Shown piece after piece: positions 5,403 through 22,424 of a DNA stretch of 35,636 nt. The stretch comes from a virus: the IMG/VR virus record IMGVR_UViG_3300021437_000059, positions 1 to 35,636 of that record. One strand, written 5' to 3'. Below the pieces are notes generated by a model. The model did no database searches, had not been told where the DNA came from, and worked only from the letters and a program-made list of their open reading frames with translations. The position numbers and the translations under genes are program-made. How positions within the stretch are numbered: position 1 is the stretch's first letter; each line of letters opens with the position of its first letter.

Positions 5403-5456
5403 AGTCCTTCATCTCTTAACACAATACCAATACAATACCTTAGTGTATCACAAGTC
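5403..5456. repeat. 54-bp inverted repeat, distal arm
   Basis: The reverse complement of this stretch matches 6256-6309 at 49 of 54 positions. It begins at the stop codon of the polymerase-like gene. The other arm lies inside that gene, so the two bracket its catalytic half. The centre contains an AATACC-rich core that is identical over 23 bases. Confidence 0.9.
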
Positions 5457-6639
5457 AGGAGCTGACAACAACCGTGAAGCCTGCGCGCTGTTCTATGAAC
5501 GCCTGCAACGCATTCGTATCAACCTCTCTGTCCGTCGCCCAGCCGTCGTGAATGAGGAAGAACCTGAAGCCGTTCGTCTTCAGGTAGTCTCGGACGGCGC
5601 CCATCACTCGTCGCTCCAGGTCGAAGTAGAGGCACCACTTGCGCTTGCTGCTTAGCGGCTTCTTGCGCTCTCTGCCGGTCTTCTTAGACACGGTGGTAAT
5701 AACGGGCAGAGATGGCTCTATCGCATCCCAGCAGGTCTTGATATCGTTCTTCAGCCGTGTCAGACGCTCATCGGCTCGAAGGGCGCGAATGCCGCGCAGG
5801 TTCCCATCCAGCACATGATACAGCGCGAAGTCTCGGTTCGCACCTAGTCGAGCGCCGCAGAACATCGCATTAATGGTGACCTTCGCGTCGTGATGGTCCT
5901 CTATCTCGCCGACCGTCTGCACATGCCGCCGGAAGTTGGACTTGTTCTGAAGGTAATCCATCAGACCGAACAGGTATTCGTCCATTCCGAGGTGCTGCGC
6001 ATGCTGAAGAATGAGGGTCGGGGCGCAGGATGCGATGTCGTAGTGATGCGTCAGTCCAGCGTCAGCCAGAACATCGGTTCGAATGTCTGAACCCACATTC
6101 TGGAGTGGGTGCCACCAGCGACTGGCTCGATCCTTGTAGGAGAAGTTCAGCGTTCTGAGGTCCTTCTCGAATTCTCGCTGGACCCAGGCGGTGGCAACTT
6201 CCTTATCGAATAGATGAAGATAGTTCAGGCAGGGCTGAGCAGGAGTGGGCGGAAGGACTTGTGTATCACTATGGTATTGTATTGGTATTGTGTTAGGAGA
6301 TGAAGGACTAATGTTCTTGGACCTTAGGGTCTTGGACGCATGCGTCTTCAGGACATCCTTCTCCATCAGAACGGCTCGAAGGGTTATCGCTCCCTCCTCG
6401 TTCAGCAGGTATTCCTTGACCTTGCCGTTGTCCATGCTGTAGTGGTTGTTCGTGCAGATGAGCAGCCTATCTCGAAGCCAGCGACTGAGCTGGCTGCTTG
6501 CCGGCCCGAAGTGCTTATTGATGAGGTCGCGTGACAACCCCTTCGGCTTCGTCAGCGAGACGAATGCTCGACAGAAGCCATAGGCGTTCCAGAGGCGCTT
6601 CAGACAGCGCGGGTCATCGAAGTTCGGTTCGTAGGTCAT
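5455..6639 (-). CDS. Candidate miniature family-A-like polymerase with N-terminal helix-turn-helix
   Basis: This is a 394-residue protein. The start at 6639 (MTYEPNFDD) has AGGAAG in front and is preferred to the weakly supported longer frame from 6729. Residues of about 30-95 look like a winged-helix (LSRDLINKHFGPASSQLSRW). Residues 100-135 are a Ser/Pro linker. The C-terminal half has three motifs in palm order: YDIASCAP (D201), KVTINAMFCG (K253, G262) and FLIHDGW (H364, D365). The spacings D201-K253 (52) and K253-G262 (9) equal or nearly equal Taq polymerase motif A to motif B and the O-helix K to G. H-D is as in motif C of family-A polymerases and T7-type RNA polymerases. Oddities are a Cys where Tyr is usual, no exonuclease domain and a very short thumb. 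It is the only replication-like gene in the genome. DNA polymerase, primer-making polymerase and RNA polymerase are all open. Confidence 0.6.
   Translation of the reverse strand: MTYEPNFDDPRCLKRLWNAYGFCRAFVSLTKPKGLSRDLINKHFGPASSQLSRWLRDRLLICTNNHYSMDNGKVKEYLLNEEGAITLRAVLMEKDVLKTHASKTLRSKNISPSSPNTIPIQYHSDTQVLPPTPAQPCLNYLHLFDKEVATAWVQREFEKDLRTLNFSYKDRASRWWHPLQNVGSDIRTDVLADAGLTHHYDIASCAPTLILQHAQHLGMDEYLFGLMDYLQNKSNFRRHVQTVGEIEDHHDAKVTINAMFCGARLGANRDFALYHVLDGNLRGIRALRADERLTRLKNDIKTCWDAIEPSLPVITTVSKKTGRERKKPLSSKRKWCLYFDLERRVMGAVRDYLKTNGFRFFLIHDGWATDREVDTNALQAFIEQRAGFTVVVSS
6256..6309. repeat. 54-bp inverted repeat, internal arm
   Basis: This arm is the partner of 5403-5456 and lies within the polymerase-like gene, where it encodes the low-complexity linker SPSSPNTIPIQYHSDTQV. 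The mismatches are clustered: a three-base TAT/ATA flip inside GTG...CAC, plus two single changes. Confidence 0.9.
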
Positions 6640-6677: not shown

Positions 6678-6769
6678 GTGCTCTGATAGAAGGCGTCGGC
6701 CCACATGGAAGAGGGTGACATTGCATCACTGAAGCCTGGCAGCATTGCCGACGACTTCTATCAGAGCAC
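6678..6769. repeat. 23-bp inverted repeat with 46-base spacer
   Basis: The stretch 6678-6700 (GTGCTCTGATAGAAG...) matches the reverse complement of 6747-6769 at 22 of 23 positions. In RNA it would form a long stem capped by a 46-base loop. It sits 40 bases before the polymerase-like gene. Confidence 0.85.
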
Positions 6770-9637: not shown

Positions 9638-9712
9638 GGGCCAATAGCTCACCGGCGAGAGCGGAGTCCTCATAAGGCTTCGGGCTGGGTTCGACACCCA
9701 GTTGGCCTACCA
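9638..9712 (+). tRNA. tRNA with CAU anticodon (Ile2 or elongator Met), CCA encoded
   Basis: It folds completely. The acceptor GGGCCAA pairs with TTGGCCT (one G-U at position 1-72). The D-arm is GCTC/GAGC, the anticodon stem GAGTC/GGCTT (with G-U pairs), the anticodon loop CTCATAA at 9669-9675, and the T-arm CTGGG-TTCGACA-CCCAG. The discriminator A and CCA end at 9712. It is not an initiator: it lacks the unpaired 1-72 position and the three G-C pairs in the anticodon stem. The C4-G69 and C5-G68 pairs are those reported as TilS recognition elements in bacterial tRNA-Ile2, so AUA-reading tRNA-Ile2 is the better guess. It holds the only GANTC site in the window (9664-9668). Confidence 0.93.
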
Positions 9713-9725
9713 ACGAGAGAAGCGA

Positions 9726-10304
9726 ATGATACGACAGAACATCACCCTTGAGCAGTTCTACACGCCACAGACAACGGCGGACTGGGTCATTCAGACCATT
9801 CGGGACCAGCCCTGGTGGATAGACCTTGTGGAGTTCATCGAGCCCACCGCCGGCAAGGGCGTCTTCGTGAATGCCCTGAAGCCCTATGAGCACTACGCCA
9901 CCGTGCATGCTGGCGACCTGGAGCCGAAGCATCCGGATGTTCAGCAGTGGGACGCGCTCACCGTCGATGTGCCGAAGTTGCTAATGCATCCGACGAAGGG
10001 TGTTCAGATACCACGGGACCATGTGTGCCTCATCGGGAACCCACCCTTCGGTCGTCAGTCGAAGCTCGCTCGTGAGATATGGGACCACTACGCCGAACAT
10101 GTTGGCTATACCGCATTCATCGTGCCGCGCTCAATGGCCATTCCGAAGACCTACAGCAAGTCCCGCACCATTCCGAAGTGCCAGGACCTGCTCTTCACAC
10201 TGAGCCTCCCAGAGGACAAGTTCGAGCTTCCGAACGGGAAGATGAAGGTCGTCAAGGGCACCGCGCTGCTCGTTACGCGTCATAAGGCGCTGAGGTTCGA
10301 ATGA
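9726..10304 (+). CDS. DNA N6-adenine-type methyltransferase (NPPF motif)
   Basis: This is a 192-residue protein starting MIRQNITLEQFYTPQTTADW. It has the FYTP element (motif X region) and the SAM-binding EFIEPTAGKGVFVNAL (residues of about 36-50). The catalytic CLIGNPPFGRQSKLA lies near residue 107. This order (X-I-IV) is that of small amino-methyltransferases acting on adenine N6 or cytosine N4. A frame opening with TTG at 9702 lies inside the tRNA and is rejected in favour of the ATG at 9726. There is no target-recognition domain of usual size, so specificity is unclear. Its last 38 residues (LLFTLSLPEDKFELPNGKM...) are duplicated at 10636-10749. It overlaps the next gene (ATGA). Confidence 0.82.
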   Translation: MIRQNITLEQFYTPQTTADWVIQTIRDQPWWIDLVEFIEPTAGKGVFVNALKPYEHYATVHAGDLEPKHPDVQQWDALTVDVPKLLMHPTKGVQIPRDHVCLIGNPPFGRQSKLAREIWDHYAEHVGYTAFIVPRSMAIPKTYSKSRTIPKCQDLLFTLSLPEDKFELPNGKMKVVKGTALLVTRHKALRFE

Positions 10305-10579: not shown

Positions 10580-10749
10580 TAACCATCAACAGAACTTCAG
10601 GCGAGTGGTGCGTCGGCAGACAAGCAGGCCAGCACCTGCTCTTCACACTGAGCCTGCCCGAGGACAAGTTCGAGCTGCCAGACGGGAAGATGAAGGTCGT
10701 GAAGGGCTGCGCGCTGCTTGTGACGCGGCATCAGGCGCTGAGGTTCTGA
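10576..10749 (+). pseudogene. Duplicated C-terminal fragment of the NPPF methyltransferase
   Basis: This is a 57-codon frame starting MITINRTSGEWCVGRQAGQH. From residue 20 it copies the last 38 residues of the 9726-10304 protein with four changes (N to D, T to C, K to Q, and the last E lost). It lacks the SAM and NPPF motifs, so it cannot be an enzyme alone. The open frame and overlapping start and stop codons show it is still translated or only recently copied. It could act as a subunit-like piece, but a gene remnant is simpler. Confidence 0.75.
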
Positions 10750-10989
10750 ATGCGAAGTCGTACTCCAGGTCCTGGGCTTGTTCCGTTCCGGCGCTCAATG
10801 CTGCACGGTGAGCCATTCCCGGCTCAGCCACCGAAGGACTGGGAGGCGAAGGCCCTGTGTCATTGGGTCCCAATGACACAGGTGCAGACCATTGAGCGCG
10901 AGCTTGACTGGCTCGCTCCCTGGGGCTCGATGCTCTGGAATGTGACGCTGCTTGACCGAATGCTCAAGAACCGCGAGTGGAGCCGATGA
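10750..10989 (+). CDS. Small protein ending in WSR (family copy 2)
   Basis: This is a 79-residue protein starting MRSRTPGPGLVPFRRSMLHG. The segment ALCHWVPMTQVQTIERELDW and the end LLDRMLKNREWSR align with QTTCYWVLSDAVRWLTGIEW and LMERMLQVRHNWSRR of the next gene. This suggests paralogues with a shared C-terminal domain of about 45 residues. The stop overlaps the next ATG. The function is unknown. Confidence 0.65.
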   Translation: MRSRTPGPGLVPFRRSMLHGEPFPAQPPKDWEAKALCHWVPMTQVQTIERELDWLAPWGSMLWNVTLLDRMLKNREWSR

Positions 10990-11720: not shown

Positions 11721-12377
11721 ATGACCTATCTTCAACCCCAAGAGCTGCTGGACGCCATCATCGAGGCGAAGTCGCTGAACTCTCTCACGCCGAGACTTGC
11801 GACGCATCTCGCATCCATCGCCGAGGGTCTCTCTCGTCATCGCTGGTATAACGGTTACTCGTTCCGGGAGGACCTTGTTGCCGAGGCTACCGCTCGCCTG
11901 TGCCGCATCTGGCATCAGTTCGACCCAGCTCGAAGTAGCAGCGCGTTCAGCTACTACACGCGAACCTGCCAGAATGTGTTCCAGGACTACATCAACCGAG
12001 AGCGCGAGCAGGCGGACATTCTTGATACCCTGCTGCTTGAGGCGAACCAGGAGCCCACGGCCGGCTTCGAGGAGCGTCAGGTTAGCAGCACCGGCTGGGC
12101 GAAGCGTCGCGCTCGTCTTGATGCCCTGCGGAAGAAGGACCTTCAGAAGCCACGGAGAACCGCCGAGACGGGCTCCCTGCCCTGGAAGCCCAACAGCCCT
12201 TCAGCATTCATTCACTGCGTTCCAGACGCGAACCCAGCGCATCTTGATGCCGCCTATGACGCCTGCAACGCGCTGAACATTACGCCCAAGGTCATAAGAC
12301 TGCGCCTGAACAGCACCGTCATTCGCGAGGTTCCCTTCGACCTCACACGGCGCGTAATGCTTCCTACGCATAAGTAG
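11721..12377 (+). CDS. Late sigma factor, T4 gp55-like
   Basis: This is a 218-residue protein starting MTYLQPQELLDAIIEAKSLN behind GGGAGG. The first 100 residues align by eye with T4 gp55: ELLDAII (T4 ELLQAII), SIAEGLSRHRWYNGYSF (T4 LIAEGLSKRFNFSGYTQ), HQFDPARSSSAFSYYTR (T4 HNFDETKYKNPHAYITQ), and FQDYINREREQ (T4 FVQRIKKERKE). This is the sigma region 2 that binds core RNA polymerase and the -10 box. gp55 drives T4 late genes from TATAAATA. It is rare in P22-like phages. The gene lies between early and virion genes, and its stop codon is part of the first late-promoter-like motif. About 34 bases of AT-rich DNA precede it. Confidence 0.82.
   Translation: MTYLQPQELLDAIIEAKSLNSLTPRLATHLASIAEGLSRHRWYNGYSFREDLVAEATARLCRIWHQFDPARSSSAFSYYTRTCQNVFQDYINREREQADILDTLLLEANQEPTAGFEERQVSSTGWAKRRARLDALRKKDLQKPRRTAETGSLPWKPNSPSAFIHCVPDANPAHLDAAYDACNALNITPKVIRLRLNSTVIREVPFDLTRRVMLPTHK
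12370..12377 (+). promoter_or_regulatory. Late promoter-like motif ATAAGTAG (packaging genes)
   Basis: This motif overlaps the stop of the sigma gene, 49 bases before the ATG at 12427. It would drive the 55-residue protein and the terminase genes. A small dyad CTAGC-ACCTC-GCTAG follows at 12382-12396. See the other copies at 14631, 16875, 23912, 28179 (minus) and 29311. Confidence 0.6.
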
Positions 12378-19387: not shown

Positions 19388-20992
19388 ATGTCAAGTCTTC
19401 GTGAGCTCCTTACCTCATCGCTGCGTCTCATCAATGTCGTTCAAGCGAATGAGAACCCATCAGCGGATGACCTTGAGGTTGCGAAGTCCGCATTCAACGC
19501 TATCGTGGATAGCTGGAGCACGGAGCATCTTGACATCTTCACGGTTCAACCATATCGGTTCCAGCTGACGCCCTACAAGCAGAACTACACGCTCGGTCCA
19601 GGCGGTGACTGGAGCATCGAGCGTCCAATGAACATTCAGCAGGCGTCCGTGATGCTGAACCCCGTCGTCATCGCACCAGCACCAGCACCGACCATCTCCT
19701 TCTCCTTCACGCCGACCACCGGTGCGGCGCCCCTGAATGTAACCTTCACGCCGAGCGACACCTCGTTCATCTCGTATGCGTGGGACTTCGGCGACGGCGG
19801 CACCTCGACGGACATCGCTCCGACGCACACTTACCTGACCGGCGGCACCTTCCACGCTTCGCTCACCGTCGTGACGCCCTCGGCAACCATCACCGCTTCG
19901 GGAGATGTTCTTGTGACGCACATTCCAGACATCACCTTCGAGCTGCGCACCACGCAGGCGTCGATACAATACTGGGCGCAGTATGCGGCCTTCCTGGATA
20001 GCTACCTGCTGACCTACTCCGAACTCGGCGGCGCCTTCGATACCTCCCAGGTCGCGACGAATGCATCGTTCGTGGATGCGCTGAACATCTACTTCAACCC
20101 ACAGGGCACGCAGTCCGCCGTTGGCAGCATCACGGTTCCATCGGCGAACAATGCCTACATCGCCGAGGTTGTCGTCAAGAAGCCCGCCGATGGTCTGTTC
20201 TTCGTGGGCTGCGTTCCATCCGCCGGCGAGGATGTGAATGCGCCGTATGCGAATACAACGACCTCATACTGGCGCTCCGACGGCACCTCGAGAGACTACA
20301 ACCTCGCGCCGACCTCGGGCGCGCCAACCTTCGCCGACGGCGATGTTCTCGGCGTTCTCATCAATGGCAATGGCGGCATCTACTTCCTGAAGAACGGCAC
20401 GGCTGGCTTCAGTCCATCCGCAACCTCGCCGGAGCGCACGCTGAACGCTCGCATCGTCGTCGGCACCATTCCAGCGCCAGTCGTGCCGCACTACGACCAC
20501 TGGGGCGAGGTCTCGTTCCGCAACGGGTATCTCGGCGAGGTTGGCGTGAGCGGCTTCATCGACGCAACCTTCCCGCTGGACACCGGCGCGCTCGTCGCAC
20601 AGACCGCATCCATCAACACGATGGCTGCGAACCCGTATCTCATCAGCAACGGCACGGATGCGCACGGCACCTGGCTCGGCGTCGGGAGCACGAGCGGTCC
20701 TCTCCCGCCGCTGGCTGAGCCGCGTGCCGTGTATGACTTCACCTCGACGACGAACTCGGGTGACTTCACGACCTATGAGCCGCACTTCTTCTTCAGCGGA
20801 CTTCCGGGTGACCACCTCTGGGTGACGGACTTCGCCGGCATCGACCCCGGTGGGTTGTGGGTGGCGACCATCGTCATTGGACCGTCGTTCGATGTTGGTG
20901 AGCAATACTATGTCGCCGGCGACCACGACGGCATCACGGTTGATAGCACCTTCATCAACGCGAACCGGCAACCGAACATCGGAGGACGCTGA
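19388..20992 (+). CDS. Tail-hub gp4-like N-terminal half fused to PKD and SPRY-like domains
   Basis: This is a 534-residue protein. Residues 1-92 are a near copy of the start of the intact gp4-like protein at 21666 (LINVVQANENPSADDLEVAK versus LINVVQANESPTADDMNVSL; KQNYTLGPGGDW versus KQNYTLGAGGDW). An Ala-Pro linker follows, then a PKD domain (about 103-178: AWDFGDGGTS, HTYLTGGTFHASLTV). A beta-rich SPRY-like domain (about 180-370) has YWRSDGTSRDY and DGDVLGVLINGNGGIYFLKN. A last unassigned beta domain runs to residue 534. The missing gp4 C-terminal half is in the next gene. TGA (20990-20992) overlaps the next ATG, so the two may be made together and assemble. Confidence 0.8.
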   Translation: MSSLRELLTSSLRLINVVQANENPSADDLEVAKSAFNAIVDSWSTEHLDIFTVQPYRFQLTPYKQNYTLGPGGDWSIERPMNIQQASVMLNPVVIAPAPAPTISFSFTPTTGAAPLNVTFTPSDTSFISYAWDFGDGGTSTDIAPTHTYLTGGTFHASLTVVTPSATITASGDVLVTHIPDITFELRTTQASIQYWAQYAAFLDSYLLTYSELGGAFDTSQVATNASFVDALNIYFNPQGTQSAVGSITVPSANNAYIAEVVVKKPADGLFFVGCVPSAGEDVNAPYANTTTSYWRSDGTSRDYNLAPTSGAPTFADGDVLGVLINGNGGIYFLKNGTAGFSPSATSPERTLNARIVVGTIPAPVVPHYDHWGEVSFRNGYLGEVGVSGFIDATFPLDTGALVAQTASINTMAANPYLISNGTDAHGTWLGVGSTSGPLPPLAEPRAVYDFTSTTNSGDFTTYEPHFFFSGLPGDHLWVTDFAGIDPGGLWVATIVIGPSFDVGEQYYVAGDHDGITVDSTFINANRQPNIGGR

Positions 20993-21669
20993 TGAGCGCG
21001 CTCTTCACCTTCACGCCGAACAACGCTCCGCCTGGGACGCCCGTTGTCTTCACGAACATCTCGACCAGCGGCACCGTGTTCAGTTGGGACTTCGGCGACG
21101 GGGTCACCGTGACCAGCGACATCGCTCCGGTTACGCACTCGTTCGCGAACCCCGGCGCATTCAGCGTCACGCTCTCCGACGGGGTCACCAGCACGACAGC
21201 AACCGTCACGGTGCCGGGTCTCTCGTTCAACTCGAGCACGCTCTGGATACCACTTGAGAGCCAGACGGATGCGCAGTGGTCATCTATCAGCGTCAAGGGC
21301 ACGCCAGCCGTGTTCCCGCTGAAGTTCTACGACACGGGTGACTATCCGCTTCGAACCATCAAGGTCTGGCCTATTCCGTCGGCGGCGAATGGCGTCGAGC
21401 TCTGGCTGTGGCAGCCGCTCTCGAACTTCAACCTTGATGACCCCATCGCATTCCCACCTGGCTATGAGCGCGCTCTTCGGTTCGCGCTTGCCATCGAGCT
21501 CGCTCCTGAGTTCGGCAAGGACCTTCCACCGCAGGTTCCTATTGCCGCTCGGGCTGCGAAGGCCATTATCAAGCGCCTGAACTCAAGCCCACAGGTGATG
21601 GTCACCGATAGAGGCATTGCGACCGGACGAACAACGATGTTCAACTATCTTAAGGGAGATACGGTATGA
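20992..21669 (+). CDS. PKD domain fused to gp4-like C-terminal half
   Basis: This is a 225-residue protein starting MSALFTFTPNNAPPGTPVVF. Residues 3-75 are a second PKD domain (FSWDFGDGVT, VTHSFANPGAFSVTL). From about residue 84 it parallels the intact gp4-like protein from its residue 107: FYDTGDYPLRTIKVWPIPSA versus LYDNGDYPLRTITVWPIPSS, then GYERALRFALAIEL and EFGKDL. It is thus the second half of an interrupted tail-hub gene. It is in a different frame from the first half, with termination-reinitiation overlap TGATG, and overlaps the next gene by four bases. Confidence 0.8.
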   Translation: MSALFTFTPNNAPPGTPVVFTNISTSGTVFSWDFGDGVTVTSDIAPVTHSFANPGAFSVTLSDGVTSTTATVTVPGLSFNSSTLWIPLESQTDAQWSSISVKGTPAVFPLKFYDTGDYPLRTIKVWPIPSAANGVELWLWQPLSNFNLDDPIAFPPGYERALRFALAIELAPEFGKDLPPQVPIAARAAKAIIKRLNSSPQVMVTDRGIATGRTTMFNYLKGDTV

Positions 21670-22424
21670 CGACAATGCGACAGCTCATCGTTGGCTCCCT
21701 CCGGCTCATTAATGTTGTTCAGGCGAATGAGAGCCCAACGGCTGATGACATGAATGTTAGCCTCTATGCGTTCAACACGCTGCTTGACAGCTGGAGCGCG
21801 GAGCGACTGGGCATCTTCACCATCAACCCATACTTCTTCCAGGTTCATGCGAACAAGCAGAACTACACGCTGGGCGCTGGTGGCGACTGGGATGTGGTGC
21901 GACCGATGCAGATACAGCAGGCGACGCTTACCTTCAACGCCGGGACGCCCGTCTCAGCTCGTGAGCTGAACTACAGTGCGACGATGATGGACTATCCGCT
22001 GGAGCTGCTGAACGACGCTCAATACGCCGGCATCGCCACGAAGGGCATCACCTCACCGTATCCGACGAAGCTCTACGACAACGGTGACTATCCGCTGCGA
22101 ACCATCACTGTGTGGCCTATTCCATCCTCGACGCAGACCATCACGCTCTGGCTATGGCAGCCGCTCGTCACGAAGGACACGCTGGATGTTGATGTTAATC
22201 TCCCGAAGGGCTACGAGCGTGCCCTAAGGTTCGGACTTGCCGTCGAGCTCGCCGCCGAGTTCGGCAAGGACCTCACCGAGAGCATCGTTCGTGTTGCAAC
22301 GGATGCGAAGGCGGTGCTGAAGCGACTGAATGCGGGACCACAGGTGATGGTGAATGACATCGCCCTGAGCCGGGCATCCGTCTCGGTCTATAACAACCTG
22401 CTGGCCGTCTCGACTGGGAGTTAA
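21666..22424 (+). CDS. Tail-hub / head-completion protein, P22 gp4-like (intact)
   Basis: This is a 252-residue protein starting MTTMRQLIVGSLRLINVVQA, with GGGAGA in front. The family pattern is LIN..QA.E.P...D...ALF..LLDSWS with a conserved QNYTLG, DYPL and GYERALRF.LA.ELA.EFGKDL. In P22, gp4 forms a 12-mer ring under the portal and starts the tail. It is longer than P22 gp4 (166). It is the uninterrupted counterpart of the split pair just upstream, so this phage has two hub genes. Confidence 0.85.
   Translation: MTTMRQLIVGSLRLINVVQANESPTADDMNVSLYAFNTLLDSWSAERLGIFTINPYFFQVHANKQNYTLGAGGDWDVVRPMQIQQATLTFNAGTPVSARELNYSATMMDYPLELLNDAQYAGIATKGITSPYPTKLYDNGDYPLRTITVWPIPSSTQTITLWLWQPLVTKDTLDVDVNLPKGYERALRFGLAVELAAEFGKDLTESIVRVATDAKAVLKRLNAGPQVMVNDIALSRASVSVYNNLLAVSTGS

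Follow-up and report, generated by a model that had tools for sequence, protein, structure and literature searches.

The DNA analyzed here (the window) comprises all 35,636 bases, positions 1 to 35,636, of the viral contig in IMG/VR record IMGVR_UViG_3300021437_000059, which carries a 126-bp direct terminal repeat. The gene of interest (5455 to 6639, minus strand) starts with an ATG at position 6639, ends with a TGA at 5457 to 5455 and encodes a 394-amino-acid protein that, on the basis of its open reading frame (ORF), translation, alignment and AlphaFold2 model, is predicted to consist of a winged helix, a linker and a minimal family-A palm. Elsewhere in the window, a tRNA gene (9638 to 9709) occupies the gap between two methyltransferase-like ORFs, a 125-nt direct repeat with 89% identity is found at the end of a methyltransferase-like ORF and again ca. 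450 nt further on (10180 to 10303 and 10628 to 10752), and a 29-nt near-perfect palindrome spans 10854 to 10882. A late sigma factor homologue (phrog_234, Sigma-70 region 2) is encoded at 11721 to 12377; of 26 related contigs, G038 alone also encodes one. Finally, a structural gene appears to be duplicated in tandem (19388 to 22424): an insert carrying two PKD domains divides the first copy into two ORFs, and the second copy (21666 to 22424) is intact.

The AlphaFold2 model, built with 39 relatives, has a mean pLDDT of 90.3. Residues 1 to 104 (6328 to 6639, minus strand; pLDDT 93.8) form the winged-helix DNA-binding domain, for which the best matches among PDB structures are LmrR/PadR, the replication terminator protein RTP and MepR, at modest Z scores of 5.4 to 5.7. 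A disordered linker follows (residues 105 to 139; 6223 to 6327, minus strand), in which residues 105 to 133 are the sole stretch of the model with a pLDDT below 50. The remainder (residues 140 to 394; 5458 to 6222, minus strand) is a palm/fingers domain that, in a structure search, matched T7 DNA polymerase with a Z score of 12.9 and a root mean square deviation of 3.8 Å over 217 amino acids, as well as Klenow, Pol theta and mitochondrial RNA polymerase (Z scores of 10.8 to 12.1); the Zamilon virophage replication protein was among the viral structure matches. In the 39-member alignment, D201, K253, H364-D365 and R174 are invariant, and a motif A aspartate, an O-helix lysine and a motif C aspartate appear to be present in order, the residue equivalences being those suggested by motif order. 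With an RRM-type palm and fingers that match solved enzymes, the domain belongs to the family-A superfamily at the fold level. By sequence, Pfam DNA_pol_A (PF00476) gave no match above its curated cutoff, Pfam, PHROGs and NCBIfam gave marginal matches only, with no known family fitting, and the PDB yielded nothing credible. Judged in this way, the protein represents a family without a Pfam, PHROG or NCBIfam entry.

The catalytic half of this protein, with its DNA-binding and polymerase domains, is bracketed in the DNA by the two arms of an inverted repeat (5403 to 5456 and 6256 to 6309), as the initial annotation had recognized. Its description of the arms held up well: they are reverse complements of each other at 49 of 54 positions and are separated by 799 nt, and BLAST E values (2.9e-14 against the window, 4e-16 in the whole record) show that a repeat of 54 nt is not due to chance. 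One arm (6256 to 6309) encodes residues 111 to 128, which do lie inside the low-pLDDT interdomain linker. The other had been said to begin exactly at the stop codon; it is located there, but the match is one base off, since the arm ends at position 5456, within the TGA. Also as annotated, three bases are flipped between the arms (GTG-ATA-CAC versus GTG-TAT-CAC), and, since relatives read TGTnnnACA at this position, the linker copy must be the altered one in the window. Were the intervening segment to flip, the third codon then read would, going by the sequence, indeed be a stop (AGG AGC TGA).

Searches of viral-contig proteins raised the number of relatives from 1 to 2, 5 and then 37, and a scan of bacterial genomes yielded prophage-like copies in Caballeronia and in Janthinobacterium, the one in Janthinobacterium being L071, together with a copy in a Legionella metagenome-assembled genome and another that is distantly related, for a total of ca. 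40; collections of named phages and plasmids contained no match. Among 43 distinct genes (39 unique genes plus L028, L070, L071 and L072), 33 have a near-identical pair of sites, usually 40 to 60 nt long, with one copy at the stop codon or 3' end and the other upstream of that copy. In 30 of these 33 pairs, the first copy lies in linker-coding DNA; in L039, L041 and L071, it precedes the gene. The initial annotation had proposed looking for the repeat in relatives, and while the repeat itself proved to be conserved, its inverted orientation did not: almost all pairs are direct, and inverted pairs were found in the window, in L041/L071 and in L063, the last of which additionally retains a direct core. 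These three cases sit in separate places in the tree, where the sister and closest relative of the window, L038, has the direct form. The inverted repeat is thus one geometry of a conserved site pair.

Several genomes depart from the common layout. L064 and L067 have pairs with diverged cores; L042 has only the linker copy, and L044 has only the stop copy; L060 combines a stop copy with a partial inverted core at the start, L070 an upstream copy with a decayed stop copy, and L043 has a weak copy. In L040, two tandem copies follow the stop codon; tandem arrangements were seen in L040 and L049 only, with one core per place otherwise. No recognized site was found in L062, L065, L066 and L068 (4 of the 43 genes). 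In L028 (357 to 1568), two adjacent ORFs take the place of an uninterrupted polymerase gene, with both sites retained. Just past the stop codon of L063 (9123 to 9208), two head-to-head cores make up an 88-nt palindrome-like element, which may be an intermediate in a change of orientation. Two contigs (L019, 12976 to 13028, and L030, 1 to 123) end within ca. 100 nt of a site, cutting the gene, which may reflect either assembly breaks caused by the repeat or real structural variation.

Alignment of the sites on their cores showed that each consists of a conserved 19-nt core, CCCTAGTGTnnnACAAGTC (ATATAGTGT in one clade), that is flanked by an AT-rich, G-poor tract on a single side. In the window, this core occurs exactly twice (0.08 occurrences expected): on the minus strand in the linker copy (6256 to 6309), with its core at 6256 to 6274 (CCATAGTGATACACAAGTC) and its flank at ca. 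6275 to 6299, and, inverted relative to that copy, on the plus strand in the copy that overlaps the stop codon (5403 to 5456), with its core at 5438 to 5456 (CCTTAGTGTATCACAAGTC) and its flank at ca. 5413 to 5437. The core is a hyphenated dyad, TGTnnnACA in most genomes, followed by AAGTC. On the side on which homology between copies extends (see below), the 25-nt flank exceeds the AT content of its genome by 17 percentage points (34 of 34 genomes; Wilcoxon P = 1e-10) and has 5% G on that strand, compared with an AT excess of 5 points on the opposite side of the core. Flank polarity tracks the core even where a copy is inverted, as in the window. The unit differs from the one initially annotated in being a directed site, a 19-nt core with a one-sided flank, that forms a direct repeat in relatives.

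A scan of 2.9 million viral contigs with the 21-nt pattern TACCCTAKTGTNNNNNAAGTC, which made use of DNA only, returned 26 stretches, and a gene of the present family was contained in all 14 stretches with two hits and in 6 of the 12 with one hit. Likewise, in scans of whole contigs, the strong matches were at the polymerase-like gene, with weaker matches scattered elsewhere. Translation of the linker copy gives a YPSVLQV-like peptide in most relatives, an IPYC-like one (IPYCITS) in L042, L047 and L048 and a TYSV-like one in L055 to L058 and L063; depending on the genome, the stop copy lies in frame or out of frame or is not translated. This use of different reading frames by the linker copy indicates that selection acts on the DNA or RNA. 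Single sites showed no consistent or stable RNA fold, and no Rfam family covers them.

Within each genome, the two copies evolve in concert. Identity within a genome is ca. 100% over most of the core, and between genomes only the core is conserved. The center triplet of the dyad varies between genomes, yet both copies share it in 25 of 28 genomes (with the tandem copies of L040 counted as a pair), against 3.6 expected and a maximum of 12 in 10,000 shuffles, and where close relatives differ, identical substitutions are often seen in both copies (e.g., 2/2 in L021/L027, 4/4 in L016/L037 and 7/7 in L004/L007). It is these shared triplets and parallel substitutions that establish concerted evolution. 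In 26 of 30 genomes, homology between copies on the 5' side of the core (gene sense) exceeded the 95% level of between-genome comparisons; on the other side, it did so in 3 of 30. Distances between sites followed those of the N-terminal rather than the catalytic domain (partial r = 0.29, P = 0.0008), a covariation that is carried by one clade (P = 0.41 without the ATATAG clade).

What might such a site pair be for? The initial annotation had seen in it an invertible switch that yields a truncated DNA-binding protein, or a long mRNA stem, and in the window genome alone the geometry would fit. However, the same two places hold a direct repeat in almost all relatives, the nearest kin (L038) included, and since inversion of a segment or pairing into a stem is impossible between direct repeats, such a general function is excluded; given, in addition, the instability of single-site folds and the fact that no dedicated recombinase turned up among the window proteins scanned, we consider this explanation very improbable. 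As a side effect in the window phage alone, inversion (leaving the DNA-binding half) or hairpin formation is formally possible. The repeats might instead be exchange points at which the catalytic domain or the whole gene is replaced as a cassette, with conversion keeping the copies alike. Phages do swap polymerases (PMC11348598), the copies are homogenized within genomes, and the repeats flank the catalytic domain or, in L039, L041 and L071, the entire gene; yet the distances of the N- and C-terminal domains correlate (r = 0.77) with no clear swap outlier, no deletion form retaining only the N terminus was seen among the DNA-pattern matches, and mere homology would not need a core that is conserved throughout the family. 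We therefore regard a cassette as improbable.

Two further explanations assign the sites to transcription. In one, the winged helix would bind both sites as operators and limit transcription of its own gene by a roadblock or DNA loop, with no origin involved. The resemblance of this domain to MarR/PadR regulators agrees with that, as do the indifference to orientation, expected of a looping or roadblock repressor, the upstream position of the first site in L039, L041 and L071, and an extra upstream core in L054, L055 and L059. Upstream cores were, however, rejected as a general operator, being confined to a few genomes; most sites lie inside and at the end of the gene instead of at promoters, an operator needs ca. 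20 nt whereas 40 to 60 nt with a strongly biased one-sided tract are kept identical, and the catalytic domain would be left unexplained. While this makes autoregulation an unlikely explanation, we rate it above the other, according to which the gene encodes a minimal single-subunit RNA polymerase, with the sites, read as GACTTGTAATACACTA-GGGTAT, serving as its promoters for primer or antisense RNA. The palm does match yeast mitochondrial RNA polymerase (Z score of 10.8), and, read backwards, the site resembles T7-type promoters (ACACTA..GG), but its likeness to T7, T3, SP6 and K11 promoters was not above that of shuffled controls (P = 0.13 and 0.055), and no such sites precede other genes. A search with PF00940 (RNA polymerase) found no match, but neither did its controls. 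On balance, promoters of this kind seem doubtful.

The reading that we favor, with a probability of roughly 0.58, is that the two arms are paired replication-initiation sites (replicators) of the phage's own initiator, encoded by the gene in which they reside. It is the combination of a dyad core with a one-sided AT tract, a protein with DNA-binding and palm domains, and the lack of other replication matches that points in this direction. Binding, unwinding, priming and origin activity of the sites are what we infer from these features, and primase activity is proposed by analogy. The N-terminal winged helix would bind the 19-nt core (TGTnnnACA, then AAGTC), a binding of protein to repeat that had been suggested before and that we consider plausible, and the AT-rich, G-poor tract beside it would open. 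The family-A palm, acting as a primase-polymerase, would then start a strand, probably with a G across from the core's conserved CCC, and the new strand would run on into the G-poor tract. Placing one copy in the DNA for the floppy linker would disturb the protein least, the other being at the gene end, and the relative orientation of the two sites would be immaterial.

In most contigs, nothing comparable to the site pair occurs elsewhere. None of 26 contigs had a match to DnaB, Pfam DNA_pol_A or D5_N, while controls were positive; since many of these contigs may be incomplete, this absence of other replication genes is soft evidence. No helicase or single-stranded-DNA-binding partner was identified, and GC skew, which follows gene strand, contained no origin signal. 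The four genes without a recognized site and the few with a single one count against replicators, and the coexistence of direct, inverted and tandem arrangements would be odd if each site set fork direction. Having two copies might serve redundancy, a two-site complex or looping, each of which would tolerate either orientation. As to how they are kept alike, we can only tentatively suggest that the enzyme itself homogenizes the sites, a primer begun at one being extended at the other, so that sequence is copied across. Although such primer transfer would explain the sharp end of homology at the core, the variable 20 to 60 nt on the other side, the identical triplets and the indifference to orientation, we think it improbable; a simpler alternative is ordinary gene conversion following an old duplication.

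Replicators within an initiator gene have a precedent in phage lambda, whose ori, inside gene O, consists of 18-bp hyphenated-dyad iterons and an adjacent AT-rich region (PMC6022878). As in our phages, the initiator has an N-terminal DNA-binding domain, a flexible linker and a C-terminal domain (PMC6022878), and a dyad site beside an AT-rich tract lies in the linker-coding part of the gene. Lambda, however, has four iterons in one place and an O protein without a polymerase (PMC6022878), whereas the phage pair consists of single sites in two places, linker and gene end, that evolve in concert and vary in orientation; clustering of iterons was not seen, with one core per place except for the tandem copies in L040 and L049.

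For the catalytic domain, the closest parallels are CcPol-MP and TV-Pol, found in mobile elements and viruses, with which it shares a minimal family-A palm, two catalytic aspartates and a hairpin arginine (PMC7581432, PMC10061031, PMC2579912). D201 and D365 are both invariant, and R174 lies in the second strand of a beta-hairpin (169 to 171/174 to 176). The RxxxK motif of the fingers is absent (K253 is invariant, but the residue four positions before it is not an arginine), as is a fused or linked D5-like helicase, D5_N being missing from the 26 contigs, many of them possibly incomplete; we therefore rejected an assignment to TV-Pol. Different, too, are the winged helix fused in front and the presence of sites within the gene itself. 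Primase activity has been shown for CcPol-MP, an A-family primase that starts with a purine, mostly opposite a template C, at sites whose consensus is similar to TACCACTTAAT, the putative origin repeat of SCCmec; related SaPI origins are found immediately downstream of rep (PMC7581432). If our palm behaved like CcPol-MP, synthesis would begin opposite the core's CCC, and the G-poor tract would then be copied.

The replication protein of pRN1, a winged-helix prim-pol that depends on an element immediately 3' of its gene (PMC4234260), resembles the system proposed here. There, an archaeo-eukaryotic primase (AEP) and SF3 helicase act at a stem-loop origin of ca. 100 nt, compared with a PolA-type palm and an unstructured, duplicated site in our phages. 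A strong hairpin with a 23-bp stem and a 46-nt loop, similar in size to the pRN1 stem-loop, is present just upstream of the polymerase gene start in the window (6678 to 6769); as it is strong in the window and L063 only, we rejected a gene-adjacent hairpin as in pRN1. Phage P4 alpha, an AEP-type primase-helicase with multi-iteron sites at ori and crr, likewise is an initiator-primase with two cis sites.

While each ingredient has a precedent, the protein family and the twin-site arrangement appear to be undescribed in the literature searched. De novo priming by a family-A palm has so far been shown for CcPol-MP only, and, by analogy, the protein described here may be a compact candidate for priming of this kind that is directed by sequence. 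If the sites are replicators, they would provide a natural example of concerted evolution between paired replicators, and the locus would be a one-gene unit comprising initiator, primase-polymerase and its own origin: a candidate replication system for a wide group of small uncultured phages that have no other recognized replication enzyme.
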